This document shows, one piece after another, positions 768-15,270 of a stretch of DNA of 28,101 bases; positions within the stretch are counted from its first letter, which is position 1, and each line of letters starts with the position of its first letter. This DNA is from a virus. The stretch lies in the IMG/VR virus record IMGVR_UViG_3300011115_000405, positions 1 through 28,101 of that record. The stretch is one strand, 5' to 3'. The notes under the pieces are model-generated. The model saw only the letters and a program-made list of their open reading frames with translations, searched no databases and was not told the origin of the DNA. A program made the translations under genes and the position numbers.

Positions 768-2104
768 GCTTTCAGTTCCTCAAGTGCTATGTCTGAAATC
801 GCCCGCTTGTCCTGAAGCGCGATCCAGATCCGTTCGTCTATAGTTTTATTACAGATCAGCAAATAGCACCAGACATCCTTCGTCTGGCCGCTGCGGTGCA
901 GCCGCCCCACCGTCTGTTCGAACAGCTCCAGCGACCACGGCATGGACAAGAAGATGATCTTGCAGCCGCCGAACTGGAGATTGAGGCCATGCCCCGCCGA
1001 CTTGGGGTGGATCAGCAGCAGCTCAATCTCGCCTGCGTTCCACCGTTGGATGGCGTTGAAGTCGTCAATCGTTCGCGCCAGCGGGTAGCGGCGCTTCAGC
1101 TCGGCCAACTCTTCCTTGTAGTTGTAGACGATGATTGTGTTGGCGCGCTGGTTCTCGTTCAGGACTTCCTCGATCAATTCAAACTTGTGCGCGGAAATCC
1201 AAATCGCTTTTTGTTTCTGGAGAAATTTACCTGGCTCTAGTGATGCTTCCGTCTTGCTGTCGTAGACAAACCCAGACGCCATCTGCTGGAGCTTGTTCGT
1301 CACGGCGGCGGCGTTCGCCGCAATAATCCGGTCGTCGCCGTATTCCAGCACAAAATCGCGCTTCATTTTTTCGTAGGGCTTGCGGTCGGCCATGTCGCAG
1401 CGCATTTCCACAACATGTAGCTGCGGCAGTTTGTCGCTGTACTCGCCTGGCTCCAGCACGAAGGTTGCCGGGCGGATGGCGTCCATGACCTGTTCCAGCG
1501 CGCCCTTGCGCGGCTGCCAGTCGCCGAAGTCGCGGTTGACACAGACGAAGTACTTCTGGAGGAACGCGCCCTTGGCCCGGCCCAACAGCGTCTGGTCAAT
1601 GACCTTGCACTGACCGAACACGTCCTCAAGCCCGTTGGATGTAAACGAGCCCGTCAGGCCCCACCGGAACGGGATCTTGTCGAGGTGCGCCAGCAGCGCC
1701 TTGAAACGTTTGCCACTGGGGTTTTTAAGCCGCGTCAGTTCGTCAAAAACAACGCCATCGAAGCCCGACAAATCTGGCAAGGACTGGATGTTGTCGTAGT
1801 TGGTCACAACGATGGGCGCGGCGCTGTCAAACGCTGCTTGACGCTGCGCTGGCGTTCCAACGGCTACGGCGATCTCAAAGTCTGGAGCCCACTTGGGTTG
1901 CTCGACCGGCCACACGTCCGTGCAGACGCGCTTGGGGGCCAACACCAGCCATCGCTTGACGTGCCCCTCCGCGATCAGCTCGGTCATGGCCGTCAGCGTG
2001 ATAGCCGTCTTGCCTGCGCCCACCGGGGCTAGGATCATTGCGCGGTCTCGTTCGAAGAGGAAGTCAGCGGCTTGTTCTTGGTAAGGTCGTAACGTGAGGC
2101 CCAT
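764..2104 (-). CDS. SNF2/DEAD-like superfamily 2 helicase
   Basis: A 446-residue superfamily 2 ATPase. A Q-motif-like LRPYQ lies near the N terminus, Walker A is APVGAGKT at about residues 26-33, the Walker B/motif II is VVFDELTRLKN at about 118-128 (DELT in place of DEAH), and motif VI is QTVGRLHRSGQ near the C terminus. The RLHRSGQ form is typical of SNF2-type translocases such as the phage helicases found beside VRR-NUC nucleases. It probably moves along duplex or branched DNA during replication or recombination. I chose the ATG at 2104 over an upstream TTG (2134) because an AAGGGG lies 7 nt before it. It overlaps the VRR-NUC gene by 70 nt, suggesting a helicase-nuclease pair, and ends in an ATGA overlap with the next gene. 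Confidence 0.93.
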   Translation of the reverse strand: MGLTLRPYQEQAADFLFERDRAMILAPVGAGKTAITLTAMTELIAEGHVKRWLVLAPKRVCTDVWPVEQPKWAPDFEIAVAVGTPAQRQAAFDSAAPIVVTNYDNIQSLPDLSGFDGVVFDELTRLKNPSGKRFKALLAHLDKIPFRWGLTGSFTSNGLEDVFGQCKVIDQTLLGRAKGAFLQKYFVCVNRDFGDWQPRKGALEQVMDAIRPATFVLEPGEYSDKLPQLHVVEMRCDMADRKPYEKMKRDFVLEYGDDRIIAANAAAVTNKLQQMASGFVYDSKTEASLEPGKFLQKQKAIWISAHKFELIEEVLNENQRANTIIVYNYKEELAELKRRYPLARTIDDFNAIQRWNAGEIELLLIHPKSAGHGLNLQFGGCKIIFLSMPWSLELFEQTVGRLHRSGQTKDVWCYLLICNKTIDERIWIALQDKRAISDIALEELKA

Positions 2105-2358
2105 TCGTCCACCCCTTCTCTGGACCAGAGGCAAGCGTATCGCTGCCCCAGATGCTGCATGTCCGCAGCAAAGATCTTCTGAAGCGGCGCGAGACGCCCG
2201 CCCTTGGTTTTAAGTTCCACAAACCACGTCTGACCGTCCGGCATACATGCGATCCGGTCGGCCACACCGCGCTGCGTAGGCGATTTGAACTTGTAAGTGG
2301 TGCCCCCGCGCAACACGACGGCCCACACAAAATAAGTTTCAACCTCACTTTCGCGCAT
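2035..2358 (-). CDS. VRR-NUC domain nuclease
   Basis: A 107-residue stand-alone VRR-NUC domain of the PD-(D/E)XK superfamily. Key features are an N-terminal ESEVE, the RGVADRI stretch with Asp34, the FVELKTK motif with Glu48 and Lys50, and Gln60 in the following helix. Stand-alone phage VRR-NUC proteins are thought to cut branched or Holliday-type junctions, and they often sit beside an SNF2-like helicase, as here (70-nt overlap). The length is normal for a single-domain member. The last 20 or so residues after YDLTKN are probably a tail dictated by overlap with the helicase gene. The start overlaps the end of the upstream transporter gene by 14 nt; the ribosome site is weak, so translation may depend on coupling. 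Confidence 0.9.
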   Translation of the reverse strand: MRESEVETYFVWAVVLRGGTTYKFKSPTQRGVADRIACMPDGQTWFVELKTKGGRLAPLQKIFAADMQHLGQRYACLWSREGVDEWASRYDLTKNKPLTSSSNETAQ

Positions 2359-2821
2359 AATTAATCGCTAACGTCCAAAGACTGCCGCCCACTGTTTTTG
2401 CAATAAATTGCGCCAGCACGATTTCTGGCATAAGCGCGTTAAAAGCTAACGTGGGGAACAATAAACTATCCACCGCAGCTCCGCAGACGTTTGAAAGATT
2501 TGCGCGGCGTTGCCAACTGCCTTGCGATTTTGCAAACACCCACCAATCTGCCAACGCGGCAATCATAAATGACGCGGCAGATGCAATGGCGATGACGCCA
2601 GCAGTCGAATTTAGCAGATACGACACACCGCCAGTAGCAACGATAAGCAGCGCCATGCGTTGCGGGGACAAACGCAAATGCAACCAATCACGCAACGCTA
2701 AATCTAAACCTATCAATACAAACGCATTTAAAGGCGTTATGACGGGGCCAAAAATTGCCACTAACAAATTAGCCCCAATAATTGCGCTTGCGTATACCAC
2801 CAAAGCCAAACCTAAGATCAT
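2345..2821 (-). CDS. VUT family (YhhQ-like) queuosine-precursor transporter
   Basis: A 158-residue, very hydrophobic protein with about five membrane segments (roughly residues 2-22, 26-46, 54-72, 73-97 and 115-140). The pattern ANLLVA-x-FGP-x2-TP-x-NAF-x2-IGLDLALRDWLH is the core signature of the VUT/YhhQ family, whose characterised E. coli member YhhQ imports the 7-deazaguanines preQ0 and preQ1. It is shorter than YhhQ (about 220 aa), as I recall other phage copies to be. The dpdA-like stop and this start are separated by one base (TAA-c-ATG), so the two are coupled. The inferred job is to raise the pool of preQ0-type base in the infected cell for insertion into phage DNA. The ligand is not proven by sequence. 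Sampled GC is lower than in the flanking genes. Confidence 0.88.
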   Translation of the reverse strand: MILGLALVVYASAIIGANLLVAIFGPVITPLNAFVLIGLDLALRDWLHLRLSPQRMALLIVATGGVSYLLNSTAGVIAIASAASFMIAALADWWVFAKSQGSWQRRANLSNVCGAAVDSLLFPTLAFNALMPEIVLAQFIAKTVGGSLWTLAINYARK

Positions 2822-2822
2822 G

Positions 2823-3539
2823 TTATTTCTCCATATATTCGTAGCGACAAGGCGCGTTGTGAGATTCTATTCGAGCGCGCATCACTTGAGCGCGAACTTC
2901 TTTGCTGGGCGGCGTGTACGTTCCAGACCAAGCTTTATCTATCCCTACGTTGCGTCCGATATTGGTTCTGTCGGCGCTGCTCAAGGGAAGTTTTGTAAAA
3001 CCCTTGGGGTTAAGCATACGCAAGCCGTGCAATTTCACTAGCGGTTCGCCGTTTCGATTGCAGACAACGCGCATAGTTTCGTCGATACGTTTCCACCAAT
3101 CGGGCGAACCTACCGAAGCGTAAGAACCGGAACTGCCTAGACAAATGCGCGGGTATTGCAACGCGAGACGTTCTAACCTGTCCAGTGATTCGTGCATGTG
3201 CCAGACCGGCGCACCAAACCAAGGGGGCAACGGACAAGCATCCAGAAGCGCGTCGTTACTTTCTTCGTCGCCGTCAATAACATCAGGAATAACGGCAAAA
3301 TCACAAGAGGGTATGCGTTGACATTGCAACGCCCAAACGTAAAACGCAGACCAATCTTGCACCGGGTGTCCACTTTTCCATGCGGAAAACGCACCGTTAT
3401 CAACAGCAAACGATTGACACACTTCAACCGCCACCGGCAACTGATCGGGGTGGCGAAAACTTACAAACGCATGGCCTGCGTTAACAGCCTTAGCGGCGGC
3501 GGTAGCGGGCGTTATGGGGAGGCCGTGATAGTGAATCAT
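2823..3539 (-). CDS. dpdA: DpdA-like DNA-guanine transglycosylase (7-deazaguanine DNA modification)
   Basis: A 238-residue protein that I recognise as a phage DpdA, a relative of tRNA-guanine transglycosylase that exchanges guanine in DNA for a 7-deazaguanine such as preQ0. Diagnostic blocks are HAFVSF (23-28), QSFAVDNGAFSAW (42-54, with Asp47), DFAVIPDVIDG (80-90, with Asp86 and Asp89), VWHMHES, ICLGSSGSY and KLHGLRML. Asp residues in these barrel loops are the candidates for nucleophile and base recognition; the CxCxxC zinc site of tRNA enzymes is absent, as expected for phage DpdA. It is the first gene of the minus-strand operon and is one base from the transporter gene. No FolE, QueD, QueE or QueC gene is in the window, so the precursor must come from the host or from genes elsewhere. 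GC is about 50%, below the flanks. Confidence 0.88.
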   Translation of the reverse strand: MIHYHGLPITPATAAAKAVNAGHAFVSFRHPDQLPVAVEVCQSFAVDNGAFSAWKSGHPVQDWSAFYVWALQCQRIPSCDFAVIPDVIDGDEESNDALLDACPLPPWFGAPVWHMHESLDRLERLALQYPRICLGSSGSYASVGSPDWWKRIDETMRVVCNRNGEPLVKLHGLRMLNPKGFTKLPLSSADRTNIGRNVGIDKAWSGTYTPPSKEVRAQVMRARIESHNAPCRYEYMEK

Positions 3540-3611
3540 AAAAAAATGTATTGCATGTTCGTAAAAGAATGTCTAGTGTCTGATTCGTCAACAGTCCACT
3601 GAGGTAATCTA
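3540..3611. promoter_or_regulatory. Divergent intergenic region, probable early promoters
   Basis: These 72 nt separate the divergently transcribed dpdA operon (minus) and the replication operon (plus), so promoters in both directions are expected here. The stretch is AT-rich relative to its flanks. Candidate hexamers are weak: on the minus strand TAGACA with an AATACA or TACATT 17-19 nt downstream, and on the plus strand TTGCAT with TAGTGT after 17 nt. The plus-strand gene has a GAGG ribosome site 8 nt before its ATG. Position is the main evidence; no operator repeat was seen. Confidence 0.35.
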
Positions 3612-4742
3612 ATGGCTCAACATTCCAGCATTGTCGGCGGGTCCACCGCCAAACGCGTCATCAACTGCCCTGGCTCCGTGGCGCTCGTCGCCCAGATGCC
3701 GCCCAAGCCATCCAGCGTCTACGCCGACACCGGCACCCTGCTCCACAACGTCATCGCGGACGTGCTGGACGGCAAGGCGACGCCTCAAGATTTCCTTGGC
3801 GCTGTCCATGCGGACGTGACGCTCGATCAGGATCTGATCGACAACAAGCTGCTGCCCGCGCTGGCTGCGCTGAATGAGATCGACCCCGACAAGATCATGG
3901 AATACGAGACCGAGGTGGTCGTTGGGTTTGGCGATCTGCTGCCCGGCGTGTTCGGGTCCGCCGACATTGTCGGTCGCATTGGCGACACGGCGTACATTGT
4001 CGATTGGAAGTTTGGCGATGGCGTCGCCGTCGATGTCGAAGAAAACTCCCAGCTTATGTTTTACGCCGCTGCGGCCATGCGGACCCCCGCCGCGCAATGG
4101 GCGTTCGAAAACGCAACCAAGGTTGAACTGGTTATTGTGCAGCCGCCCTATGTCAAGCGTTGGGAGACGACCCCGCGCCGCATCCAACTGTTTGAGAAAG
4201 AACTGATGCAGGCGGTCAAGGTTGCCCAGCGTCCTGACGCGCCGCTGGCGCAGGGTGATTGGTGCCGTTGGTGCGCCGCCAAGGCGATCTGCCCCATCAT
4301 GACCGGCGCTGCTGACCGGGCGATGGTCGCCGCGCTGAAGAGCGTCGATGTCGCCAGCGTGTCGGACCACCTCAAGATGGCGGATCAGTTGGAAAACTGG
4401 ATCAAGGAGGTGCGGGCGCTGGCGATGCAGACGCTGGAGGCTGGCCTGCCGGTGCCCGGCTACAAGCTTGTCCCCAAGCGCGCCATGCGCCAGTGGATGG
4501 ATGAAGGAAAGGCCCTTGACGCCATGTGCGATCTGGGGCTCGATGTAAAGGAATTGACAGAGACGAAGTTGTTAAGTCCTGCACAAGCCGAGAAAGTGTT
4601 GAAGAAGCACAAGCTCGCGCTGCCTGCGGATCACGTCGTCGCTGTCTCATCGGGTAACACGTTGGCGCCCGAGGATGATCCTCGCCCAGCGGTGTTGCAG
4701 ATCGGCGCACAGTTGTCCGCCGCTCTTGGTAAACTCGTCTAA
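3612..4742 (+). CDS. DUF2800 protein, Cas4/RecB-like iron-sulfur nuclease
   Basis: A 376-residue member of the phage DUF2800 family. The N terminus (HSSIVGGSTAKRVINCPGS) is characteristic. A PD-(D/E)XK core is visible as SADIVGRIGD (Asp118), YIVDWKFGDG (Asp131, Lys133) and NSQLMFYA (Gln147). Cys19 together with Cys218, Cys221 and Cys227 (C-x2-C-x5-C) matches the split four-cysteine arrangement that holds a [4Fe-4S] cluster in Cas4 and AddB nucleases. The likely role is exonuclease or end processing in phage recombination, acting with the polymerase and the SSB-position protein that follow. It opens the plus-strand replication operon, with GAGG 8 nt before the ATG. A Cas4-like role in spacer acquisition is unlikely because no CRISPR genes are present. 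Confidence 0.88.
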   Translation: MAQHSSIVGGSTAKRVINCPGSVALVAQMPPKPSSVYADTGTLLHNVIADVLDGKATPQDFLGAVHADVTLDQDLIDNKLLPALAALNEIDPDKIMEYETEVVVGFGDLLPGVFGSADIVGRIGDTAYIVDWKFGDGVAVDVEENSQLMFYAAAAMRTPAAQWAFENATKVELVIVQPPYVKRWETTPRRIQLFEKELMQAVKVAQRPDAPLAQGDWCRWCAAKAICPIMTGAADRAMVAALKSVDVASVSDHLKMADQLENWIKEVRALAMQTLEAGLPVPGYKLVPKRAMRQWMDEGKALDAMCDLGLDVKELTETKLLSPAQAEKVLKKHKLALPADHVVAVSSGNTLAPEDDPRPAVLQIGAQLSAALGKLV

Positions 4743-4754
4743 GGAGAAACAGTA

Positions 4755-5408
4755 ATGTCAAATCTTACAGCCTTCGGTAACGCTAATCTTCCCTCCGTTC
4801 AGTCGCTTGCTTCGAGCCTGCGTTCGATCAACGCCGGGGTGCCTGACGGCGCGGGTTCTGTCATCATCAAGATGGACAAGACCGGCCATTGGGTGTTCGG
4901 CGCGGATCAGACCGAAGTCGAGGACGACGCGACTTGGGCCATCAATCCTTTCAGCTTTGTCCACGGCTTTATTGCTTGGGGCGAAGGTGAGGTGCTTGGC
5001 GAAAAAATGGTGCCGGTGTCGCAGCCGCTGCCTGAACTCGACGTTGCGCCGCCCGCCGCCAAGCGCGGTTGGGAGGTGCAGGTGGGTCTGTCCCTCAAGT
5101 GCATGTCTGGCGAGGACAAGGATCTGGAAGGCCGTTACACGGTCACGTCCGTGGGCGGCAAGAAGGCGGTGCAGCAGCTCGCGCTCGCCATCGCTGCCCA
5201 GGTCGATAAGGACCAGACCAAGCCGGTTCCCGTGGTGCGCCTGAAGAAAGAACACTACGTTCACAAGTCCTACGGTCGCATCTATACCCCCGTCTTCGAA
5301 ATTATTGAGTGGGTCGGGATGGATGGTGCGGCTGCGGAAACCGAGGCGGCGGAAGCCGCGTCGGACGATGCTCCTGCTGAGTCGCGTCGCCGTCGTCGCA
5401 GCGCGTAA
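4755..5408 (+). CDS. Hypothetical replication/recombination-associated protein (SSB position)
   Basis: A 217-residue protein I recognise only as a recurrent neighbour of DUF2800 and polymerase genes. Conserved-looking blocks are GHWVFGADQTEVE, WAINPFSFVHGFIAWGEGEVLGE, VTSVGGKKAVQQL and HKSYGRIYTPVFEI. The central region alternates hydrophobic and polar residues, as a beta-rich fold would, and the C-terminal 30 residues are a flexible acidic Ala/Glu stretch ending in an unusual Arg run (SRRRRRSA). In related phages this slot between nuclease and DNA polymerase is often filled by a single-stranded DNA-binding or annealing protein, so that is a reasonable guess, but there is no OB-fold signature I can name. 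GGAG lies 8 nt before the ATG, 12 nt after the previous stop. Confidence 0.85.
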   Translation: MSNLTAFGNANLPSVQSLASSLRSINAGVPDGAGSVIIKMDKTGHWVFGADQTEVEDDATWAINPFSFVHGFIAWGEGEVLGEKMVPVSQPLPELDVAPPAAKRGWEVQVGLSLKCMSGEDKDLEGRYTVTSVGGKKAVQQLALAIAAQVDKDQTKPVPVVRLKKEHYVHKSYGRIYTPVFEIIEWVGMDGAAAETEAAEAASDDAPAESRRRRRSA

Positions 5409-5421
5409 GGAGGAGTGAAAG

Positions 5422-5456
5422 CGGGCGCCAGTGGTTCCTCCCCCCGCTGGCGCCCG
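5422..5456 (+). other. Strong hairpin in the DNA polymerase leader
   Basis: A perfect 10-bp GC-rich stem (CGGGCGCCAG at 5422-5431 paired with CTGGCGCCCG at 5447-5456) encloses a 15-nt loop in the 64-nt gap before the polymerase ATG. An AAGGAGG at 5407-5413 just before it has no start codon at usable spacing except a GTG at 5431 that lies inside the stem. No T-run follows, so it is not a canonical intrinsic terminator; translation control, RNA processing or partial attenuation are all possible. Confidence 0.6.
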
Positions 5457-5472
5457 TGAGTATCTAAAGCCC

Positions 5473-7446
5473 ATGAAAATTCTCTGGCTAGATTTCGAGA
5501 CGCGGAGCAAGTGCGACTTGCCTTCGCGGGGCGTGTACAATTACGCCCAAGATCTGAGCACTCAGGTGCTTTGCATGTCCTACGCTTTCGATGACGACGA
5601 GGTGATGACCTGGGTGCCCGGTCAGCCGTTCCCCGCCGCTGTCGCCAACCACACCGGCCAGATCCGCGCGCACAACGCTGCGTTCGAGCGCCTGATCTTC
5701 TGGTTCGTGCTGTGCCCCGATCACAAGATCCCTGAACCTAAGCTGGCGCAGTTCTATTGCACGGCGGCGCAGGCGCGCGCCAACTGCGCGCCCGGCTCGC
5801 TGGAGGACGTGGGGCGCTTTGCTGGCGCGTCCATGAAGAAAGACCACCGGGGCTCGCAACTGATTCGTTTGCTGTCCGTCCCGCAGGCTGACGGGGGCTT
5901 CCGCCAAGATCAGACGCTCATGGACGAGATGATTGCCTATTGCGAACAAGACGTCCGTGCCATGCGCGCGATCAGCAAGGGTATGCGTGACCTGTCTGCG
6001 GACGAGCTGGCCGATTACCACGTCAACGAGCGCATCAACGACCGAGGCGTTCGCGTCGATGTCGCGCTGTGCAACGCTGCCGTGCGCTACGCGACTGAGG
6101 AGCTGGACGAGATTCAGCAGATCGTGCGTGAGGTGACGGAGGGCGCGATCACCAGCGTCCGCAGTCCCAAGATGCGCCAGTGGGTGCTGGACCGCGTCGG
6201 GCCGCAGGCGCTGGAATTGATGACGATCTACAAGGACGGCGAGGCCAAGTATTCTATCGACAAGTCCGTGCGCGGCAACCTTTTAATTCTTGCTGGAGAA
6301 AACCCCGATGAAGTGCCGCCCGATGTCGCTGAGGTCATACAATGTGCGGACGACCTATGGGCGTCATCAGTCGCGAAGTTTCAACGCGCAGCTAATCTTG
6401 CTGACGCAGATGATGGACGAGTGCGTGGGGCGTTTGTCTTTTCTGGGGGTTCAGCAACGGGCCGTGCTTCGAGCTTTGGACTGCAATTGCAAAACTTCCC
6501 TCGCAAGTGTGCGAAGGAACCTGAACTAGTTCGCGCTGCGATGACGCAGGGCAACGAGATCGTCCCGCAGTACGGCAAGCGCGTTACGGATGTGCTAAAG
6601 CAGATGCTGCGCCCCATGATTTTGCCCGAGCGCGGCAACAGTCTAATCATTTACGATTGGTCGTCCATCGAAGCGCGCGTCAATCCGTGGCTGTCTGGTC
6701 GGGGCGACGACAAACTGGACATCTTCCGCAACGGCGGCGACGTTTACAAGGTGAACGCATCGGCAACCTTTCGTGTGCCGGTCGCCGAGGTGACGGGCGA
6801 CCAGCGCCAGGTCGGCAAGGTCCAGGAACTCGCGTGTTCTTTTGGGGGCGGCGTCGGCGCGTTCGCTGCGATGGGCCGCATCTACGGCCTGTTGCTGCCT
6901 GAACCTGAGGCCAAGCGCATGGTGGACGGGTGGCGTCGCGCTAATCCGTGGGCGATGCCGTTCTGGGAAGGTCTGGAGCGGTGCTACACCGCCGCCATGC
7001 GCCATAAGGGGAAAGAGTTTACCGCCGGGCGCATAACTTACTTGTTCGACGGCGTCCACCTCTGGTACGCTTTGCCGTCTGGGCGCATTCTTTGCTACCC
7101 ATACGCTCGATTGGAGGAAGACGGCGTCACCTACGCCAAGGCGGCGTGGAAGCCCGCCGCAGACGCCAAGGAATGGCCCCGCGCCCGCCTATGGCGTGGT
7201 CTGGCCTGCGAGAACGTCACGCAGGCGACCGCGCACGATCTGCTTCGCATATCTCTGCGCCGGTTAGATGAAGCCGGTTTCGAAGTTATCGCGCATGTCC
7301 ACGATGAAATAATTGTGGAGCATCCGACAATTGAGGCGGAAGACGCCGCCGAACGAATACGAAACATAATGGTGACGCCTCCTGCGTGGGGAAAAGATAT
7401 ACCTCTTGCCGCCGAAGGCGAAGTAATGCTACGGTATCACAAATAA
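5473..7446 (+). CDS. DNA polymerase I-type (family A) with 3'-5' exonuclease
   Basis: A 657-residue replicative family A polymerase. The exonuclease domain has motif I LDFETRS (Asp7, Glu9), motif II HNAAFE (67-72) and motif III YCEQD (156-160). The polymerase domain has the TGR...LQNFPR template motif (329-344), motif A YDWSSIEAR (Asp395, Glu400, Arg402), the O-helix RQVGK (Arg445, Lys449) and motif C HVHDE (Asp611, Glu612). There is no 5' nuclease domain. In the O-helix the positions matching E. coli Pol I Phe762 and Tyr766 are Leu453 and Phe457. I start at the ATG at 5473 because LDFET motifs normally lie within ten residues of the N terminus; a GTG at 5431 would add 14 low-complexity residues and sits inside a hairpin. 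Its ribosome site is weak. Confidence 0.96.
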   Translation: MKILWLDFETRSKCDLPSRGVYNYAQDLSTQVLCMSYAFDDDEVMTWVPGQPFPAAVANHTGQIRAHNAAFERLIFWFVLCPDHKIPEPKLAQFYCTAAQARANCAPGSLEDVGRFAGASMKKDHRGSQLIRLLSVPQADGGFRQDQTLMDEMIAYCEQDVRAMRAISKGMRDLSADELADYHVNERINDRGVRVDVALCNAAVRYATEELDEIQQIVREVTEGAITSVRSPKMRQWVLDRVGPQALELMTIYKDGEAKYSIDKSVRGNLLILAGENPDEVPPDVAEVIQCADDLWASSVAKFQRAANLADADDGRVRGAFVFSGGSATGRASSFGLQLQNFPRKCAKEPELVRAAMTQGNEIVPQYGKRVTDVLKQMLRPMILPERGNSLIIYDWSSIEARVNPWLSGRGDDKLDIFRNGGDVYKVNASATFRVPVAEVTGDQRQVGKVQELACSFGGGVGAFAAMGRIYGLLLPEPEAKRMVDGWRRANPWAMPFWEGLERCYTAAMRHKGKEFTAGRITYLFDGVHLWYALPSGRILCYPYARLEEDGVTYAKAAWKPAADAKEWPRARLWRGLACENVTQATAHDLLRISLRRLDEAGFEVIAHVHDEIIVEHPTIEAEDAAERIRNIMVTPPAWGKDIPLAAEGEVMLRYHK

Positions 7447-10429: not shown

Positions 10430-10457
10430 GATCCGGTTCATCACCGGATCTGTTTTG
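10430..10457 (+). terminator. Intrinsic terminator of the replication operon
   Basis: A perfect 8-bp stem GATCCGGT (10430-10437) / ACCGGATC (10443-10450) with a 5-nt loop is followed by TGTTTTG, a short T-run on the plus strand, so it would stop transcription from the primase gene. The right arm overlaps the stop codon and last codons of the convergent minus-strand gene. Confidence 0.6.
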
Positions 10458-10815
10458 CGGCACGGGCCGCATGTTCATCATCTTCGCGCAGGGCGTGGGT
10501 CGCAACGCACCACGCGCTTTCAATCTCACGGGGCGGCGTGTCTTCAATGACGCGCAGAGCCGCCCGCAAATTCTCGATCTGATACTGGTAGGTCTCGGTG
10601 GCGTCGTCAATGGCGTTTGCGGTTGCGCGGTCGTCAACGCCTAGAATGACCAACAGTTCCTCAATCTCACGCTCCATCTCGTCGTGGAACATCTGCTTCT
10701 TGCGGCCTTCGCAGTAATAGGCCAGCAGCGCCGCTTCAGCAATAGCCTTGGCCGCGATCTGAATGCGGACGTAGGCAACCGCGTCGTGTTCACAGATACC
10801 GATTTTGAATGTCAT
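10441..10815 (-). CDS. Hypothetical accessory protein, charged helical
   Basis: A 124-residue protein of unknown function, last gene of the minus-strand accessory operon. It is predicted almost wholly helical, with a conspicuous acidic helix (DEMEREIEELLVIL, about residues 44-57) and heptad-like hydrophobic spacing through residues 60-95, which suggests a coiled-coil oligomer. I chose the ATG at 10815 because GGGGAG lies 6-7 nt before it; an upstream in-frame ATG at 10944 would add 43 residues that overlap the neighbouring gene and look unlike protein. Cysteines are scattered and form no metal motif. The stop codon is buried in the terminator hairpin of the opposing operon. Confidence 0.72.
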   Translation of the reverse strand: MTFKIGICEHDAVAYVRIQIAAKAIAEAALLAYYCEGRKKQMFHDEMEREIEELLVILGVDDRATANAIDDATETYQYQIENLRAALRVIEDTPPREIESAWCVATHALREDDEHAARAAKQIR

Positions 10816-10873
10816 GGTAGGCTCCCCTTGGTTGACGGTGGACCATCGCACGTCAGCGCAATGGTGTAAAGAT

Positions 10874-11092
10874 TTATTTTGCATCCAGTGCTTTGCGGGC
10901 AAGCTCTTCAATTGCAGGCCAACGATCGTCATATGCCGCGTCAAACGAATACTGATCGACCCAGCTCAACACTTCCCGCAGCGCCGCCTCCAGTTTCTTG
11001 ATGCGGTCGGCAGCTTCACTCATCGTCACCGCCGTTTCGTAATCGTCTCGCAGTGGCCCCTTATGCAGCCGCTTCACAAGATCATCAGTCAT
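10874..11092 (-). CDS. MTDDLVKRL-type small protein, paralogue 3
   Basis: A 72-residue helical protein and the third of three tandem relatives in this operon. They share an opening (M-S/T-DDLVK-x-LR), a central AADRI-x-KLEAAL block and an ending of the form A-x-KAL. Such short proteins are common in phage accessory regions; I know of no function. The central block has coiled-coil spacing (residues about 28-42), so the relatives may form homo- or hetero-oligomers. Its start overlaps the stop of paralogue 2 in an ATGACTGA, so it is probably translated by coupling. The ATG at 11092 is preferred to an upstream in-frame ATG at 11257 because it matches the paralogues' N termini exactly. Confidence 0.75.
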   Translation of the reverse strand: MTDDLVKRLHKGPLRDDYETAVTMSEAADRIKKLEAALREVLSWVDQYSFDAAYDDRWPAIEELARKALDAK

Positions 11093-11291
11093 CTTTTCTC
11101 TCCAGTGCTTTCTGAGCTGTGCGGCCACAGTTAGCGCCGCCATCGTAGTATTCGACTCCGCATCCATCGTCAGGTTTGCAATCGCAGGCGTAGAGACGCA
11201 GCGCCGCCTCCAGCTTCTCGATGTGGTCTGCGGCGGGCTTGGCAAGATACCAGCCACTGTTACGCAACTGCTTCACAAGATCATCAGTCAT
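11085..11291 (-). CDS. MTDDLVKRL-type small protein, paralogue 2
   Basis: A 68-residue relative of the genes at 10874 and 11642. It keeps the MTDDLVKQLR opening, the AADHIEKLEAAL block (about residues 20-31) and the AQKALERKDD ending, but its middle carries a distinct segment with four cysteines (ACDCKPDDGCG and a later NCG) and several Asp and Tyr residues. That spacing could bind metal, though no known zinc-finger pattern fits. The start overlaps the preceding gene's stop in an ATGACTGA, and its own stop makes the same overlap with paralogue 3. Function is unknown. Confidence 0.72.
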   Translation of the reverse strand: MTDDLVKQLRNSGWYLAKPAADHIEKLEAALRLYACDCKPDDGCGVEYYDGGANCGRTAQKALERKDD

Positions 11292-11649
11292 CTTTCCACT
11301 CCAATGCTTTGCGGCGAATTACGACGAAGCGACCCAATGGCCGGGCTCTCAGTTCTTTGAACCAGAGGGCCGTTATGTTATGGCCCATGAACCGTGAAGC
11401 AAGCACCACCGTCTTTACCGTTTGAAGCTCTGGATGCCGCTTCAAGTGGCTCTTGAAAGCCTTGAAGGAGCGGCAATGGGCAGTGGTGGTGGCTCCTTTT
11501 GTCCCGCACTCTGACAAAGGTAGCCACTTTTTATGCTCGTAGCTCCACCACAAGTCCCCTTCAAAGTTGGTGATGCCGTGAAAGCGCGAGCGCAGAATGC
11601 GGGTGCCCTTAGGGGCTTCAAAATAAAACTCCCATCTGCCCTCAGTCAT
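11284..11649 (-). CDS. Hypothetical protein with borrowed paralogue tail
   Basis: A 121-residue basic protein, Trp- and Phe-rich (EGRWEFYFEAPKGTRILR, DLWWSYEHKKWLPL), which reads like a compact alpha/beta domain. It does not resemble the small paralogues around it except at the last ten residues, RRKALEWKDD, which match their endings (AQKALERKDD, ARNALEGKDD). DNA at the 3' end also matches. Both ends carry the ATGACTGA start/stop overlap used throughout this cluster. I infer that a recombination placed this gene into the paralogue array and gave it the array's 3' tail. No catalytic motif is recognised and the role is unknown. Confidence 0.72.
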   Translation of the reverse strand: MTEGRWEFYFEAPKGTRILRSRFHGITNFEGDLWWSYEHKKWLPLSECGTKGATTTAHCRSFKAFKSHLKRHPELQTVKTVVLASRFMGHNITALWFKELRARPLGRFVVIRRKALEWKDD

Positions 11650-11881
11650 CTTTCCCCTCCAGCGCGTTGCGGGCTATAGAAGCCATCTCTTCGTTGTACC
11701 GATGATGTACTGCGATCTTTTCCAAAGCGCGCTCCAGCTTCTCAATGCGGTCGGCGGCTGCGTCAGCGTTTTCAGCATGATGCCAATTAACAGTCTTTTT
11801 GGGGTCGCAATCAGCTTCATGCGCAACTGCCCTGTGGTCTTTCGCATCTTCACGCAGCCGCTTTACAAGATCATCGCTCAT
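11642..11881 (-). CDS. MTDDLVKRL-type small protein, paralogue 1
   Basis: A 79-residue relative of the genes at 11085 and 10874, with MSDDLVKRLRED at the start, AADRIEKLERAL (about residues 42-53) and the ending IARNALEGKDD. The segment between the first two blocks is His-, Asp- and Lys-rich (AVAHEADCDPKKTVNWHHAEN) and unlike its siblings, so the family has constant ends and a variable middle. The ATG at 11881 comes one base after the stop of the upstream gene (TAA-c-ATG); an upstream in-frame start at 11908 is less likely because it departs from the paralogue N terminus. Unknown function, probably a small oligomeric accessory protein. Confidence 0.75.
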   Translation of the reverse strand: MSDDLVKRLREDAKDHRAVAHEADCDPKKTVNWHHAENADAAADRIEKLERALEKIAVHHRYNEEMASIARNALEGKDD

Positions 11882-11882
11882 G

Positions 11883-12116
11883 TTAACCTTCTCCCGTTTT
11901 TTTAACACGTTCTGGGGATGTGTTAAGTTCGCGTCTCATTGTCGGGTTAGGGCGCCCGCGCACGTCAGGGTTAGGCCAGACCCAAATTTCTCCAGTGTCG
12001 TCTTGAATGCAGACCCACAGCAAATGGTGTTCGTCGCCGTTATCGATCAGGAAGTGGCACAGCGCCCGCCCCAGCGGCGTGGTGAGCGGTATGGTAGGGT
12101 TTAGCTGGAGGATCAC
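11883..12116 (-). CDS. Conserved small phage protein, unknown function
   Basis: A 77-residue protein starting at a GTG that overlaps the upstream stop (GTGA). The sequence MILQLNPTIPLTTPLGRALCHFLIDNGDEHH... then LLWVCIQDDTGEIWVWPNPDVRG is one I recognise as a recurrent short protein in proteobacterial phages, with no known activity. The pattern of alternating hydrophobic residues and the QDDTGEIW turn suggests a small beta-rich domain. A GAGGATC-like stretch cannot serve as a ribosome site, so coupling to the upstream DUF6378 gene is probable. The last fifteen residues (ELNTSPERVKKTGEG) look like a flexible tail. Confidence 0.75.
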   Translation of the reverse strand: MILQLNPTIPLTTPLGRALCHFLIDNGDEHHLLWVCIQDDTGEIWVWPNPDVRGRPNPTMRRELNTSPERVKKTGEG

Positions 12117-12469
12117 GGCCTGCCCTCCGTCAGGAACGCAGGCGCGTCCAGCGGCTCATCGCCGGGCCTGTCGGGCATAGTAGCGCGGGGCATGGCGGCG
12201 GGTGCCTGCGCTTGCGCCAGGTCGCGCACCACCAGTTCGAAGTAACCCGCGCCGTCCTGCCAGTGGTCGGGAAAAGACGGGTCGCCGCACAGGATGCGCG
12301 ACACCTTGTCGGCGATGACCTCCAGCGCCTGCGCCTGCGCCACGTCCAGCCGGTTCCAATTGCGCGAGGTTCGCATGACGTTCTTGATGGCTTGCGAGTA
12401 ACCGGCGACTTCGCGGAATAGCCCGTGGGTCTGTTCTCGCTCGCTCAGGATCTGGTCTGTAATGCTCAT
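12113..12469 (-). CDS. DUF6378-like phage protein
   Basis: A 118-residue protein fitting the DUF6378 pattern: ILSEREQTHG near the N terminus, a run of helix with QAIKNVM, then DVAQAQALEVIADKVSRILCGDPSFPDHWQDGAGYFELV. The family is widespread in phages and has no assigned function; the spaced acidic and His residues (Glu10, His15, Asp/Glu near ADK, His in PDHW) recall all-alpha nucleotide pyrophosphohydrolases, but that is only a resemblance. The C-terminal 25 residues are Pro/Ala-rich and probably disordered. The start overlaps the upstream stop in an ATGA, and the stop overlaps the next gene's GTG, so it sits in a fully coupled string. Confidence 0.82.
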   Translation of the reverse strand: MSITDQILSEREQTHGLFREVAGYSQAIKNVMRTSRNWNRLDVAQAQALEVIADKVSRILCGDPSFPDHWQDGAGYFELVVRDLAQAQAPAAMPRATMPDRPGDEPLDAPAFLTEGRP

Positions 12470-12948
12470 TTTTTACGGTCCTTTTTCGGATTTAAGGCGT
12501 TCATGACGGTGGTGTGGTCGCGGTTGCAGAATATCGCTATCTTTTTCAGAGACCACCCATGGCGGCGCAGGGCGGCGTAGACGTCGGCGCGGGCACGGGT
12601 GTAGGGCAGGGTGCGGCTTGGACCCATGGCTTGGTCAAAGGTCATGCCGTGAGGCGCAAGCGCCTCTTGTGCGATGCGCCTGGCGGCGCGGGGCGGGGGT
12701 ACGATCGGCGGCGCAGGCGGCGCGTTCGATTTGATTTCGGCTATGACTTCGGCTTTAACCTCGTCTCTAAGCTCGGCCTTAAGTTCTTCGCGAATTTCGG
12801 TCTCAAGCTCCACGTCGATCTCAACGGCGAGTTCGACGATCAGCTTAGGGTCGGGCGTCGGCGGTTGACGCCATGGCGCCGGGGGCGGTCCGTTCAACCT
12901 AGCGCGCACGGCCTTGTAGTGGTCCATTAGCTCGTCATAGTAGCTCAT
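12466..12948 (-). CDS. Protein with C-terminal DnaA domain IV-like DNA-binding domain
   Basis: A 160-residue protein in three parts. Residues 1-35 are a Pro-rich lead; residues 36-73 are a strongly charged Glu/Lys helix with heptad spacing, a likely coiled coil; residues about 90-151 resemble DnaA domain IV. The closing motif NRDHTTVMNAL (142-152) matches the DnaA signature in which the DHTTV residues contact the DnaA box, preceded by a helix (ARADVYAALRRHGWSLKKIAIFC) like that of Bac_DnaA_C. It has no AAA+ domain, so it can bind DNA but not act as an ATP switch. It may direct host or phage replication factors to the phage origin, or compete with host DnaA. The repeat-rich candidate origin lies about 1.8 kb away. 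Confidence 0.85.
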   Translation of the reverse strand: MSYYDELMDHYKAVRARLNGPPPAPWRQPPTPDPKLIVELAVEIDVELETEIREELKAELRDEVKAEVIAEIKSNAPPAPPIVPPPRAARRIAQEALAPHGMTFDQAMGPSRTLPYTRARADVYAALRRHGWSLKKIAIFCNRDHTTVMNALNPKKDRKK

Positions 12949-13139
12949 GGGACCATCTCCATCAGCCAGCGCCGCGCGTCGGCCTCGTTCCTAGCGTAGC
13001 CCAGCGCGCCTAGGACGCTCACGCAGCGCCATGCGCGGGCGTGGGTGCGCTTGTAGCGGACGGGGCCGTAGTGGCCTAGCAGGCGCCCGTAGTAGCTCAC
13101 GGTGCGCGTCGCGTCGGGGTGGGTTTGAACGGTTACCAT
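12945..13139 (-). CDS. Small basic hypothetical protein
   Basis: A 64-residue protein, rich in Arg and Tyr (TRTVSYYGRLLGHYGPVRYKRTHARAW) with a C-terminal helix that includes ARNEADARRWLMEM. The net positive charge would allow nucleic-acid binding but no known fold is evident. I used the ATG at 13139, one base after the upstream stop (TGA-t-ATG), instead of an in-frame ATG at 13253 that would overlap the upstream gene by over 110 nt and adds Cys/Arg-rich sequence typical of a shadow frame. Its stop overlaps the DnaA-like gene start in an ATGA, so the pair is probably coupled. Confidence 0.65.
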   Translation of the reverse strand: MVTVQTHPDATRTVSYYGRLLGHYGPVRYKRTHARAWRCVSVLGALGYARNEADARRWLMEMVP

Positions 13140-13140
13140 A

Positions 13141-13416
13141 TCACGCCCTCCGATTCTGAGCGCGCACGGCGCGCAGGATCTCCTGCCCATCGCTCGCCCA
13201 CACGCCGGAGGCGCAGGGGCATGGGTGCGTCGGGAGCTCACGGGCAAGCTCACGGGCCTGCAAGGCGCGTATGGCGCTCAGAACCGCCTGGCCATACGCG
13301 CGGCGGTCGGCGTCGGGCGCGCGCCTGTAGCGGTCCAAGCCGGGCAGCTTGGGGTAAACTTTATGATCGGCATAGAAACCGTTCATATCATCATATGTGC
13401 GGATTCGCTTAGCCAT
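13141..13416 (-). CDS. Hypothetical protein, Arg-rich helical
   Basis: A 91-residue protein beginning MAKRIRTYDDMNGFYADHK, followed by long Arg/Ala-rich helices (DADRRAYGQAVLSAIRALQARELARELP, about residues 33-62) and a short Cys-containing stretch (PCPCASGVW). A strong GGAGG lies 8 nt before the ATG, so the start is secure. It lies between a tiny membrane-protein reading frame and the 64-residue gene with which it is spaced by one base. No motif or family recognised. Confidence 0.75.
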   Translation of the reverse strand: MAKRIRTYDDMNGFYADHKVYPKLPGLDRYRRAPDADRRAYGQAVLSAIRALQARELARELPTHPCPCASGVWASDGQEILRAVRAQNRRA

Positions 13417-13432
13417 TGTCAGACCTCCAGAT

Positions 13433-13513
13433 CTATAGCGCCAGCATGGCGACGAGCGCCCCCACGACTAGCATGGACATCAGGGTGAGCAGGGCTTCGA
13501 TGATCGCGATCAT
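13433..13513 (-). CDS. Possible 26-residue single-span membrane protein
   Basis: A very short reading frame, ATG at 13513 to TAG at 13433, encodes 26 residues that are almost entirely a membrane helix (IEALLTLMSMLVVGALVAML). Third codon positions are strongly G/C, as in the neighbouring real genes, whereas the overlapping longer frame has A/T-rich third positions here. A GGAA lies about 9 nt before the ATG, and the next gene's ribosome site directly follows the stop. Phages do carry such mini-proteins (holin-like or superinfection-related), but its role is unknown and it may not be translated. Confidence 0.45.
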   Translation of the reverse strand: MIAIIEALLTLMSMLVVGALVAMLAL

Positions 13514-13600
13514 TGTTGAGGTTCCGTTGCGGGAGGGGCGGGGGGCGACGCGCTTGGTAGCGCGTCGTTGGGGCGATGGGGCGTATGGGCGTCACGCGCA

Positions 13601-13834
13601 TCAGAAAACGCGGACGGCGTTGGAAAGCTTCTGGGTCAGACCGTATTCGGTCACGGTCGACACGTCGGTGTAGGGCACGGTCCAGTCACGGGGCGTCGGG
13701 TCACGCTCCCATGATTGCTTGGCGTAGGTTTCAAGCGCGGCCCACGCCGGACGGCGCTCGCCCGTGTGATATGTCGGTTGACGGCGCACGTCTTCATTAT
13801 AGGCAAGCTCGCCGGGGGTCATGTTGCGGGTCAT
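13601..13834 (-). CDS. Hypothetical small protein
   Basis: A 77-residue soluble protein (MTRNMTPGELAYNEDVRRQP, then WAALETYAKQSWERDPTPRDW and a C-terminal VSTVTEYGLTQKL). Trp/Tyr-rich with mixed charge, it resembles small phage accessory proteins but no family I can name. The ATG at 13834 follows an AGGAGG by 8 nt and comes two bases after the stop of the DUF7249-like gene, so the two are co-translated. An in-frame TTG two codons earlier is less likely. Confidence 0.75.
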   Translation of the reverse strand: MTRNMTPGELAYNEDVRRQPTYHTGERRPAWAALETYAKQSWERDPTPRDWTVPYTDVSTVTEYGLTQKLSNAVRVF

Positions 13835-13836
13835 GA

Positions 13837-14127
13837 TCAAGCCTCCTCTGATTCGGTTTCGATGTCATATGCGTCGCGATAGGCGTCGCGCATGGCGTCG
13901 CCGATTTCGTACCATTCGACATCTTGCAGGAATGCGCGGGCGTATTCGCGGGCAATGGTGTTTGCGCCGCCCTCGACCAAGTCGAGCGCATAATCCTTCA
14001 ACGCCATGCCAAGATCGTATCGGTCCAGCTTGTGCCAATCCATATCGCGCAAGTCGATTCCATCAAAGATTTCGAGATTGACGCGCCAGGTAGCGTAATT
14101 GGTCCAGCCGTTGTATGTGTTGCTCAT
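13837..14127 (-). CDS. DUF7249-like protein
   Basis: A 96-residue acidic protein opening MSNTYNGWTNYATWRVNLEIFDG, the hallmark of the phage DUF7249 family (NGWTNYETW-type), which is common in accessory regions of many phages and in some plasmids. Function is unknown. The rest is a run of helices with many Asp and Glu (DGIDLRDMDWHKLD; residues 64-96 very acidic), so a DNA-mimic or protein-binding role is conceivable but not shown. It is preceded by 75 nt containing two hairpins and so may be the first gene of a sub-operon. Confidence 0.82.
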   Translation of the reverse strand: MSNTYNGWTNYATWRVNLEIFDGIDLRDMDWHKLDRYDLGMALKDYALDLVEGGANTIAREYARAFLQDVEWYEIGDAMRDAYRDAYDIETESEEA

Positions 14128-14159
14128 GTTGTTCGATTCCTTGTTTTTGGTCTCATCAG

Positions 14160-14193
14160 ACGGCGCGTGACGCCGTGACGGGCTGGCGCCCGT
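14160..14193. other. Two adjacent short hairpins between small genes
   Basis: ACGGCG-CGTGA-CGCCGT (14160-14176) and ACGGGC-TGGC-GCCCGT (14178-14193) lie side by side in the 75-nt gap between the minus-strand genes ending at 14203 and starting at 14127. On the minus strand neither is followed by a T-run. They could attenuate read-through or shield the downstream mRNA 5' end. Confidence 0.4.
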
Positions 14194-14202
14194 TTCGACT
14201 TG

Positions 14203-14415
14203 TTAGGCGCAAGTCATGCTCTCAGGCAATTCCTTAGACGCCCAGCCATAGAAACGTGCGCGTGCGCCGTTAGCCTCAACGTCAGACAAATGCGCCCATT
14301 CATATGCGCTGCCCACGCGGCGAAACGCGCGTCTGTCAAGCGCAGGGTTGATGACGGGCTCTACCATCAGCATTTGGCCATCGGATGTGGTGAGGATTGT
14401 AATGCCTTTATTCAT
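14203..14415 (-). CDS. Hypothetical small protein
   Basis: A 70-residue protein with the first half hydrophobic and beta-like (GITILTTSDGQMLMVEPVINPA) and the second with Arg/Trp/Tyr-rich helices (RRVGSAYEWAHLSDVEANGARARFYGW). GGGAG precedes the ATG at 14415 by 8 nt; an upstream in-frame ATG at 14493 lies in the neighbouring gene and is rejected. No family recognised. It is the second gene of the minus-strand operon that begins next to the candidate origin. Confidence 0.72.
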   Translation of the reverse strand: MNKGITILTTSDGQMLMVEPVINPALDRRAFRRVGSAYEWAHLSDVEANGARARFYGWASKELPESMTCA

Positions 14416-14428
14416 TGTCACGCTCCCG

Positions 14429-14614
14429 TTACCAAGTGAAGGATGCTTTGAAGGTCTCGCCGGGATATTGCGCCTGCGCTGCAGCGACCGCATCCTTGCA
14501 AGTGCGATAGGCGTTGGTATTCCATGCGAATGACCACACGAGGTGCGGCGCAGTCTTGGGCGTGCGCTTGTGCCAGACGTAAATCTTGCGAGGGTAAACT
14601 TTGAAGGTGCTCAT
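14429..14614 (-). CDS. Hypothetical small protein, first gene of the minus-strand operon
   Basis: A 61-residue basic, aromatic protein (STFKVYPRKIYVWHKRTPK, then HLVWSFAWNTNAYRTCKDAVAAAQAQYPG and a final FKASFTW). The alternation of aromatic and basic residues with one central Ala-rich helix suggests a small beta-alpha domain. It resembles short phage proteins that start KVYVWHKR, for which I know no function. AGGA precedes the ATG by 9 nt. It lies nearest the repeat-rich non-coding region, so the promoter for the whole accessory operon should be just upstream, though I see no good hexamer pair there. Confidence 0.75.
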   Translation of the reverse strand: MSTFKVYPRKIYVWHKRTPKTAPHLVWSFAWNTNAYRTCKDAVAAAQAQYPGETFKASFTW

Positions 14615-14786
14615 TTGTCTGTCCTAATGTTTGGCGTCTGCGCGCCGTTTCGACAAGAATCACTGTAAAGGATTTTCGAGCATTAGCAAGCGGAAAATGC
14701 AGGAATGGCGAAAAAAGTTTTGGGCTAGTGCTTGGTCGGGCTTAGGCGTCGCATTAGGCGTGCGAATTTCCCAGTTTTCCGGGCTG

Positions 14787-14804
14787 TTAGGCTATTTAGG
14801 CTAT
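14787..14804 (+). repeat. Iteron pair TTAGGCTAT x2
   Basis: Two perfect direct copies of TTAGGCTAT lie at the left edge of the AT-rich patch. They differ by one base (T for C) from the main iteron TTAGGCCAT. Two further TTAGGCGT half-copies precede them at 14742 and 14754. Confidence 0.75.
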
Positions 14805-14850
14805 TATTTATATATACCTTTAGAAATTTAAATGTGTATTGTATAGCTCT
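14801..14850. other. AT-rich patch, possible DNA-unwinding element
   Basis: By hand count 40 of 50 bases are A or T, in a genome otherwise well above 50% GC; it includes TTATTTATATATA and AAATTTAAATG. Flanking iterons on both sides suggest duplex opening at an origin, though an AT-rich promoter is also possible. Confidence 0.5.
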
Positions 14851-14891
14851 AGCTGTAGGCTGTGTGGAGCTGTGACGTGTCCCGCGAAACT

Positions 14892-14907
14892 AGCCTAAAT
14901 GGCCTAA
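14892..14907 (-). repeat. Inverted iteron copy
   Basis: AGCCTAAATGGCCTAA is one full TTAGGCCAT plus a truncated second unit (TTAGGCT) in reverse orientation. The same 16-bp block recurs at 15063-15078 and, with one mismatch, at 15164-15179. Confidence 0.75.
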
Positions 14908-15015
14908 GTGATATTTTTTCCCGGTTTTCTGGGGGCTTTTTGCCAAAATGCGTGACAATTAATAGCCAAACAAGACGACTATGTAAACGCCCAACGCCAC
15001 GCCCCGGCACGCGCG

Positions 15016-15051
15016 TTAGGCCATTTAGGCCATTTAGGCCATTTAGGCCAT
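15016..15051 (+). repeat. Four tandem TTAGGCCAT iterons
   Basis: Four perfect head-to-tail copies of the 9-bp unit TTAGGCCAT occupy 15016-15024, 15025-15033, 15034-15042 and 15043-15051. This is the densest iteron cluster in the region. The 9-bp period is close to one helical turn, so bound protein would track slowly round the helix. Confidence 0.9.
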
Positions 15052-15078
15052 TTGCAAACACTAGCCTAAATGGCCTAA
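15034..15078. repeat. 15-bp perfect inverted repeat (potential cruciform)
   Basis: The last iterons (TTAGGCCATTTAGGC, 15034-15048) pair perfectly with GCCTAAATGGCCTAA at 15064-15078 across a 15-nt loop. The right arm is itself the inverted iteron block. As DNA this could extrude a cruciform; as RNA it would be a stable stem-loop with no T-run. Confidence 0.8.
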
Positions 15079-15163
15079 CGCCATGCACGCGCTACTGGCA
15101 CGCCATGCGAGCGCCAGGCAAGCGCAAGCTGGCGCAGGACGCCATGTGCGACTTCCGGCGCGT

Positions 15164-15179
15164 AGCCTAAATGGCCCAA
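15164..15179 (-). repeat. Inverted iteron copy, one mismatch
   Basis: AGCCTAAATGGCCCAA is the third inverted copy of the 16-bp block, with C in place of T in the last unit. It lies 12 nt before the 20-bp tandem repeats. Confidence 0.7.
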
Positions 15180-15190
15180 AACGCCTATGC

Positions 15191-15270
15191 CATTGCCTAG
15201 ATCATGTAGCTATTGCCTTGCTTGTGTTGCTATTGCCTAGATCATGTAGCTATTGCTCAGGTTATGTTAG
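15191..15270 (+). repeat. Four tandem 20-bp repeats upstream of terS
   Basis: Units at 15191-15210, 15211-15230, 15231-15250 and 15251-15270. The consensus is TATTGCCTAGATCATGTAGC; units 1 and 3 are identical except for the first base, while units 2 and 4 share the TATTGC start and degenerate later. A 20-bp period places equivalent bases on the same helix face, as expected for cooperative binding. Candidate ligands are the terminase small subunit (a pac site) or a replication initiator. Confidence 0.88.

Follow-up and report, generated by a model that had tools for sequence, protein, structure and literature searches.

Described 7-deazaguanine systems and a DpdA–VUT gene pair

In phage CAjan the transglycosylase DpdA is essential for the 2'-deoxy-7-cyano-7-deazaguanosine (dPreQ0) found in the phage DNA, where about one third of the G is modified, and the same survey lists 76 phages having DpdA only (group 3), for which the precursor is possibly host preQ0 or imported (Hutinet 2019). 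That survey records YhhQ in some phages with no correlation with any group. Salvage through a phage transporter was proposed for Vid5 (2018), and salvage or boosting of preQ0 for EC151 (2021); the archaeal virus HRTV-29 has been read as hijacking host preQ0, and YhhQ occurs in about 9% of bacterial dpd islands. Here we analyse a DpdA-type protein and a VUT/QPTR (YhhQ-type) transporter encoded side by side in a 28,101-base virus record, IMGVR_UViG_3300011115_000405 (positions 1–28,101, which is the whole record and is referred to as the window; no completeness estimate is attached to it). The pair bears on the question of whether DpdA phages lacking precursor genes modify their DNA, and what the source of the base is.

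We consider it probable that the two genes are a 7-deazaguanine DNA-modification cassette which makes no precursor, with VUT importing the base and DpdA swapping it for G. VUT would probably sit in the host inner membrane and import a 7-deazaguanine base, which homology suggests is preQ0 or preQ1, as a supplement to the supply made by the host, and DpdA would probably exchange this base for guanine in phage DNA by the chemistry of tRNA-guanine transglycosylase (TGT). What we infer covers transport and its direction, the substrate and the identity of the modified base, as well as DNA being the target and protection, if any, from restriction. DNA as the target is supported by reports of 2'-deoxy-7-amido-7-deazaguanosine (dADG) in the DNA of two phages of the same DpdA clade without synthesis genes, Salmonella phage 7-11 and Pantoea phage MED16. 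The first-pass annotation had proposed scavenging of the base from the host or environment, and salvage is indeed the best explanation of the locus, although the idea itself is not novel (Vid5 2018, Hutinet 2019, EC151 2021).

The window DpdA shares 34% and 38% identity with the DpdAs of 7-11 and MED16, respectively, both of which match the clade profile, and both phages are reported to be without preQ0 synthesis genes; the difference is that VUT lies one base from DpdA in the window, whereas no VUT, QueD-like or X-type (PHROG 37496) gene was found by profiles in the 7-11 and MED16 genomes. CAjan and phage 9g have homologous DpdAs which likewise have the diagnostic histidine and lack the zinc motif, and the CAjan transporter is assigned to the same family, PHROG 4899, but CAjan also has annotated FolE, QueD, QueE and QueC, and a DpdA of 306 aa compared with 238 aa in the window. 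Phage-borne preQ0/preQ1 transporters are also found in Vid5 and EC151, both reported, unlike the window, to carry synthesis genes (three of four and four, respectively). Compared with E. coli YhhQ and the QPTR family (COG1738, PF02592), the window VUT, a predicted transporter of 158 aa, has a Vut_1 domain above the Pfam cut-off and about six predicted helices, but falls below the NCBIfam equivalog cut-offs. Vibrio phage nt-1 DpdA2 also belongs to the TGT superfamily and is linked to phage DNA modification, but is reported without His196, for which the window protein has an equivalent.

No match to the FolE, QueD, QueC, QueF or radical-SAM (QueE) models was found in the 28.1-kb window, which agrees with the first-pass annotation where FolE, QueD, QueE and QueC had been described as missing. 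The only model used for QueE was the general radical-SAM one, and in the CAjan positive control FolE, QueD and QueC were above cut-off and the radical-SAM match only below it, so the absence of QueE is less certain than that of the other genes. As the syntenic relative described below is a 38.8-kb circle, and no exact terminal repeat was found in the 28,101-base record, this may be a fragment, and synthesis genes beyond the window cannot be excluded. Four phages titled complete (the E. coli phages Lg3 and LHE71, plus AB3P2 and PEAT2) have the pair and gave no match to the same five models, which makes the question directly testable in Lg3 and LHE71. Across 24 records, many of them fragments, FolE was found in one (CAjan, the control) and QueD in four (CAjan plus three loci where the partner is QueD-like), with none over the cut-offs for QueF (Pfam) and radical SAM (sub-threshold radical-SAM matches were seen in CAjan, 9.3e-8, and in the L025 record, 3.5e-4); QueC was found in 0/21 records (CAjan not included) and in 1/8 of a second set (CAjan).

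Family and fold of DpdA and VUT

The 238-aa protein matched PHROG 887 'queuine tRNA-ribosyltransferase' (1.3e-64) and homologues were found in 104 phage records (E 1e-5), with no matches in Pfam or NCBIfam. Its predicted structure, modelled from a 48-sequence alignment, is a TIM barrel (pLDDT 83, weak at residues 197–205). VIA-align, which only re-orders the Foldseek list, placed TGT and arcTGT structures in 47 of the 50 rows shown, the best having Z 15.1, a root-mean-square deviation of 3.2, 219 residues and 11% identity, and the first unrelated barrel was at Z 13.2; searches of the PDB with the DpdA sequence and with the DpdA profile gave no TGT match. Alignment of the DpdA clade with a seven-member CAjan/9g DpdA set by hhalign gave a probability of 97% (E 8.9e-11, 144 columns), and a single BLASTP comparison of the window and CAjan proteins gave E 6e-7 with 23% identity over 154 residues.

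Three residues invariant in the clade align with motifs of the CAjan/9g DpdAs (Table 1). We take Asp47 to have the general acid/base role known from TGT, and Asp190 is presumably the catalytic nucleophile, again by analogy with TGT. The histidine motif has the form H(G/A)(L/F/Y) in 294 of the 329 full-length open reading frames (ORFs) of a wider DpdA set. The zinc motif of TGT, CxCxxC, was present in all 12 host TGTs and in none of the seven CAjan/9g-type DpdAs or the 48 members of the window clade, which sets the 238-aa protein apart from tRNA-acting TGTs. DpdA2 is marked by the absence of His196 (Hutinet 2019), and with the equivalent His171 present, the window protein is not of this type either. 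The fold, the profile match and the aligned His and Asp residues place the protein inside the TGT/DpdA superfamily, which the first-pass annotation had made one test of its reading, together with the structural comparison with TGT given above. A PADLOC scan confined to the two pair proteins found no families for either.

VUT matched PF02592 (Vut_1) with E 4.1e-10 (40.6 bits against a cut-off of 27.2) and PHROG 4899 with 2.2e-31, the family which also includes the annotated 'putative preQ0 transporter' of CAjan (25% identical to the window VUT over 95 residues). Its model (pLDDT 94) has helices at residues 3–48 (long enough for two), 53–70, 72–98, 103–127 and 132–157. In VIA-align the top 11 rows were ECF S-components or related importers with Z 8.6–10.8 and other folds followed from 7.8, though it should be noted that helical bundles can reach Z values of this size through shared arrangement alone.

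Linkage of DpdA with VUT and with other neighbours

DpdA–VUT pairing recurs in many phages and is tight when seen from the transporter side. Because loci were taken in order of their similarity to the query, the counts given here describe the clade of the window and not all phages. At least 536 VUT relatives were found, and DpdA was near in 80/80 of those ranking highest, with a gap of no more than 235 bases (50 or fewer in 67); these loci form 30 clusters at 95% VUT identity and nine at 80%. On the DpdA side viral contigs gave at least 596 relatives; in the 80 ranking highest, VUT was directly downstream in 56, of which 14 also had the X-type protein, and the other 24 had a QueD-like protein (14), X alone (seven) or none of these (three). 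In the 37 DpdA clusters with the pair, DpdA and VUT protein distances correlate (Spearman 0.51, reached by 0/2000 permutations), and both orders occur, with VUT downstream in 26 and upstream in 11. From a different starting point, 11 of 21 phage records with a VUT relative were examined, and in nine, from nine phages of different groups, a same-clade DpdA adjoins VUT.

When all fetched loci were counted with redundancy included, the neighbours of 334 DpdA ORFs (leaving out nine DpdA matches under 150 aa), with VUT coded as V, QueD-like as Q and PHROG 37496 as X, were V 130, VX 32, X 31, Q 17, QX 2 and none 122. The last class is heavily redundant, with one 80% cluster of 81 sequences and another of 24. 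After clustering at 80% the 63 representatives (one of 64 was left out because of short flanks) were V 30, VX 4, X 10, Q 3, QX 1 and none 15. VUT and the QueD-like protein were not found together at any of the 80 loci or 334 ORFs, but with a one-sided Fisher p of only 0.04 for the 63 non-redundant representatives we do not claim that their exclusivity is proven.

The QueD-like protein (PTPS, PF01242) is directly beside DpdA at L011:4195–4521 and at 13 other viral loci, and is encoded downstream of DpdA in L063, L070, L074 and L060. These partners retain the zinc histidines and the DH and E residues, and the cysteine of CxxxHGH is absent in 11 of the 12 aligned, with L186 keeping it, as does CAjan QueD. 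The X-type protein of about 80 aa lies beside DpdA at L069:9750–10001, L080:10735–10971 and L006:10701–10937, as well as in Pseudomonas, Acidovorax and Janthinobacterium contigs (L174, L176 and L193), and its CP and E are invariant and followed by a G(H/Q)E pattern (CP...E...G(H/Q)E), resembling what we take to be the QueF motif. The resemblance of this sequence to a minimal QueF is suggestive only: hhalign against a 12-member QueF set gave a probability of 14%, and the 12 QueFs, which are related to each other, ranked 4, 5, 11, 19, 21, 22, 24, 26, 32, 39, 43 and 66 against X among 415 background ORFs (two of which are X proteins). No QueF model was found among the NCBIfam matches of 20 X-type members, a PDB profile search with X returned nothing relevant, and the Pfam QueF model, as noted, was not over cut-off in the 24 records.

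It is conceivable, and we offer this tentatively, that the singleton DpdA is the constant part of a modular system in which the gene for supply can be exchanged, its slot being held by VUT, by a cysteine-less QueD-like protein, or by X (alone or with VUT), the partner setting the amount or kind of 7-deazaguanine. If so, phages with DpdA only would carry traces of modified base and those with VUT much more. A neighbour slot held by VUT, a cysteine-less QueD-like or a QueF-resembling protein is possibly a new observation; no published survey of DpdA–VUT linkage was found in the literature searched, from which subscription journals were mostly missing.

Variant arrangements were also seen. Two VUT copies (3296–3766 and 5054–5524) flank one DpdA in L036. 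In mEp021 (L240:3956–4468) and MagusPhagus (L379) a VUT relative has a DNA methyltransferase as its neighbour and a Dam methylase close by; in mEp021 a DUF6378 protein lies on the other side.

Alternative explanations and genomic setting

The nearest syntenic phage is the podovirus ctNMl277, a 38.8-kb circle which has in common with the window the helicase, VRR-NUC, DUF2800, polymerase, primase, terminase, portal and coat genes. In ctNMl277 the VRR-NUC (annotated start 1858, plus strand) and DUF2800 (start 1794, minus strand) genes diverge and are 63 bases apart; in the window the DpdA–VUT pair is placed between these same two genes, and is absent there in ctNMl277. The lowest G+C of the window in a sliding scan was around the pair (0.500–0.505; mean 0.577, standard deviation 0.032), though a second dip at 22851 is nearly as low (0.510) and base composition alone is therefore no proof of recent gain. 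The values of dN/dS between the window and L003 were 0.061 for DpdA and 0.087 for VUT, and judged by these sequence comparisons both genes are under purifying selection.

A number of observations weigh against a salvage cassette. The reported modification in the same DpdA clade is slight, with dADG at about 0.02% of G in 7-11 (Hutinet 2019) and about 0.13% in MED16 (2021), which has only dpdA and whose authors infer that the restriction enzymes they tested were inhibited only minimally. A further DpdA-only phage, Orion, is reported to have no modification in a host without the preQ0 pathway (Hutinet 2019). E. coli, the host of several relatives, itself has QueC (control row). Foldseek with the DpdA model returned other TIM barrels and no TGT among the 50 rows shown, and the DpdA clade did not match 12 host TGTs significantly when compared by hhalign. 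The linkage counts speak for one clade, and the remaining two of the 11 VUT records examined, mEp021 and MagusPhagus, have a methyltransferase next to VUT instead of DpdA (no DpdA was found in the 8.4 kb of mEp021 examined, and two of seven records of the mEp021-like group were looked at). VUT itself scored under the NCBIfam cut-offs for the TIGR00697 queuosine precursor transporter (19.4 against 50.95 bits) and NF008406 YhhQ (17.2 against 252), and so we do not assign its substrate from sequence; in the first-pass description of a YhhQ/VUT-type transporter, Vut_1 (QPTR/YhhQ-type) membership holds, and we make no claim to the specific YhhQ name.

As 7-11 and MED16 have no VUT, their trace levels do not test the DpdA–VUT pair, and the lack of VUT could also explain why only traces of modification have been seen in the two same-clade phages measured so far, if VUT does raise modification. 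The levels in these relatives also make restriction protection uncertain, and the VUT-bearing phages are the ones to measure; the first-pass statement that DpdA bases block restriction enzymes was overstated, given 0.02% and 0.13% dADG and the minimal enzyme effect in MED16. In the DNA itself the base need not be preQ0; it may be dADG or some other derivative.

Host supply was considered using 16 bacterial genomes with a DpdA relative, probably in prophages. QueC, TGT and QueF were each found in 15/16, and import in such hosts would add to the supply and not be the sole source, but 15 of the 16 DpdA contigs are without VUT by profile and these data say little about the hosts of VUT-bearing phages. 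Only in L183 is VUT beside DpdA by profile; this is an Achromobacter aestuarii contig, and the genome (G010) also matches QueC, TGT and QueF. We note that in the Acidovorax delafieldii contig L176 (6394–7149) the DpdA relative is split over two frames, with matches of 102 and 138 aa, and this copy may be broken as a result.

In one alternative, which overlaps in part with the salvage cassette and to which we give a minor share of probability, DpdA uses preQ0 made by the host while VUT supplies some other base (preQ1, queuine or another derivative), and the final base is not dPreQ0. QPTR members are reported to differ in substrate, with preQ0/preQ1 for the E. coli protein and queuine for that of Chlamydia (PMC11130926), same-clade phages are reported to have dADG and almost no dPreQ0, and other loci have QueD-like and X-type genes in this neighbourhood; against this, the substrate is not readable from sequence here, and dADG may stem from natural oxidation of dPreQ0, as allowed for several phages (Hutinet 2019). 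That the target is not DNA, with the enzyme modifying tRNA or protein and VUT feeding that reaction, seems unlikely to us. The Cap10–CdnD complex carrying the NDG modification (9ntn) equals the best VIA-align score of the DpdA model (Z 15.1), which suggests that the TGT fold can act on protein, and the 238-aa protein has little beyond the barrel, yet it has the His196 equivalent and no zinc motif, like the CAjan/9g-type DpdAs, and dADG is reported in the DNA of the two same-clade phages.

The pair might instead boost the host queuosine supply for translation, with trace DNA modification as a by-product, in keeping with the trace levels and little visible protection reported for the clade and with the TGT and QueF genes in 15/16 of the bacterial genomes. 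We regard this as quite unlikely since a transporter alone would do, yet DpdA is kept at 80/80 VUT loci and its residues aligned with the CAjan/9g motifs are invariant. It is very improbable that the genes are what decay has left of a complete preQ0 pathway, with no present function; the five unmatched synthesis models in the window would fit such a history, but the low dN/dS values and the intact pair in nine isolates do not, and the low G+C, together with the absence of the pair from the corresponding site in ctNMl277, suggests that genes were gained here and not lost.

The pair heads a run of five minus-strand genes (Table 1) with a single base (2822) between the DpdA and VUT ORFs and a 14-nt overlap between the VUT and VRR-NUC ORFs. 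The five-gene operon of the first-pass annotation stands as a gene order with a one-base gap, but as an arrangement only, as promoter-like sites numbered two against 1.8 expected. A search for the preQ1 riboswitch and other RNAs in positions 2000–4000 (E up to 10) gave only two irrelevant sub-threshold matches, RNA families at gathering thresholds had no matches in the window plus six loci, and no tRNA genes were found. The VRR-NUC-like ORF (62% identical to its ctNMl277 counterpart over 85 aa) is a core gene of this phage type, as is the SNF2 helicase (68% identical), which lies downstream in the same strand run as the pair.

Table 1. Coordinates of the DpdA–VUT pair, its candidate functional residues and the adjoining features in the window.
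Feature	Position	Strand	Characteristics
67-aa ORF, last of the five minus-strand genes	564–767	minus	ctNMl277 ORF 53% identical over 59 aa
SNF2-type DNA helicase	764–2134	minus	PF00176 4.8e-12, PHROG 62
VRR-NUC-like nuclease	2035–2358	minus	PHROG 93 endonuclease 1.5e-24; Pfam VRR_NUC below cut-off
Predicted VUT/QPTR (YhhQ-type) membrane transporter	2345–2821	minus	158 aa, ATG start, about six predicted helices
DpdA-type 7-deazaguanine DNA transglycosylase, singleton clade, PHROG 887	2823–3539	minus	238 aa, ATG start
DpdA Asp190, SAD(R/S)T motif	2970–2972	minus	48/48 invariant; aligns with the SCDSS aspartate of CAjan/9g
DpdA His171	3027–3029	minus	48/48 invariant; aligns with His196 of phage 9g DpdA
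DpdA Asp47, DNGAF motif	3399–3401	minus	48/48 invariant; aligns with the DSGA aspartate of CAjan/9g DpdA
Divergent intergenic region upstream of DpdA	3540–3611		72 bp; riboswitch and promoter searches negative

Elsewhere in the window, many small minus-strand ORFs run from 10441 to 14640 between the primase and packaging genes, and before the packaging genes, at 14787–15267, there is a cluster of direct and inverted repeats of TTAGGCCAT / GCCTAAATGGCCTAA which may be an origin or a partition-like site.

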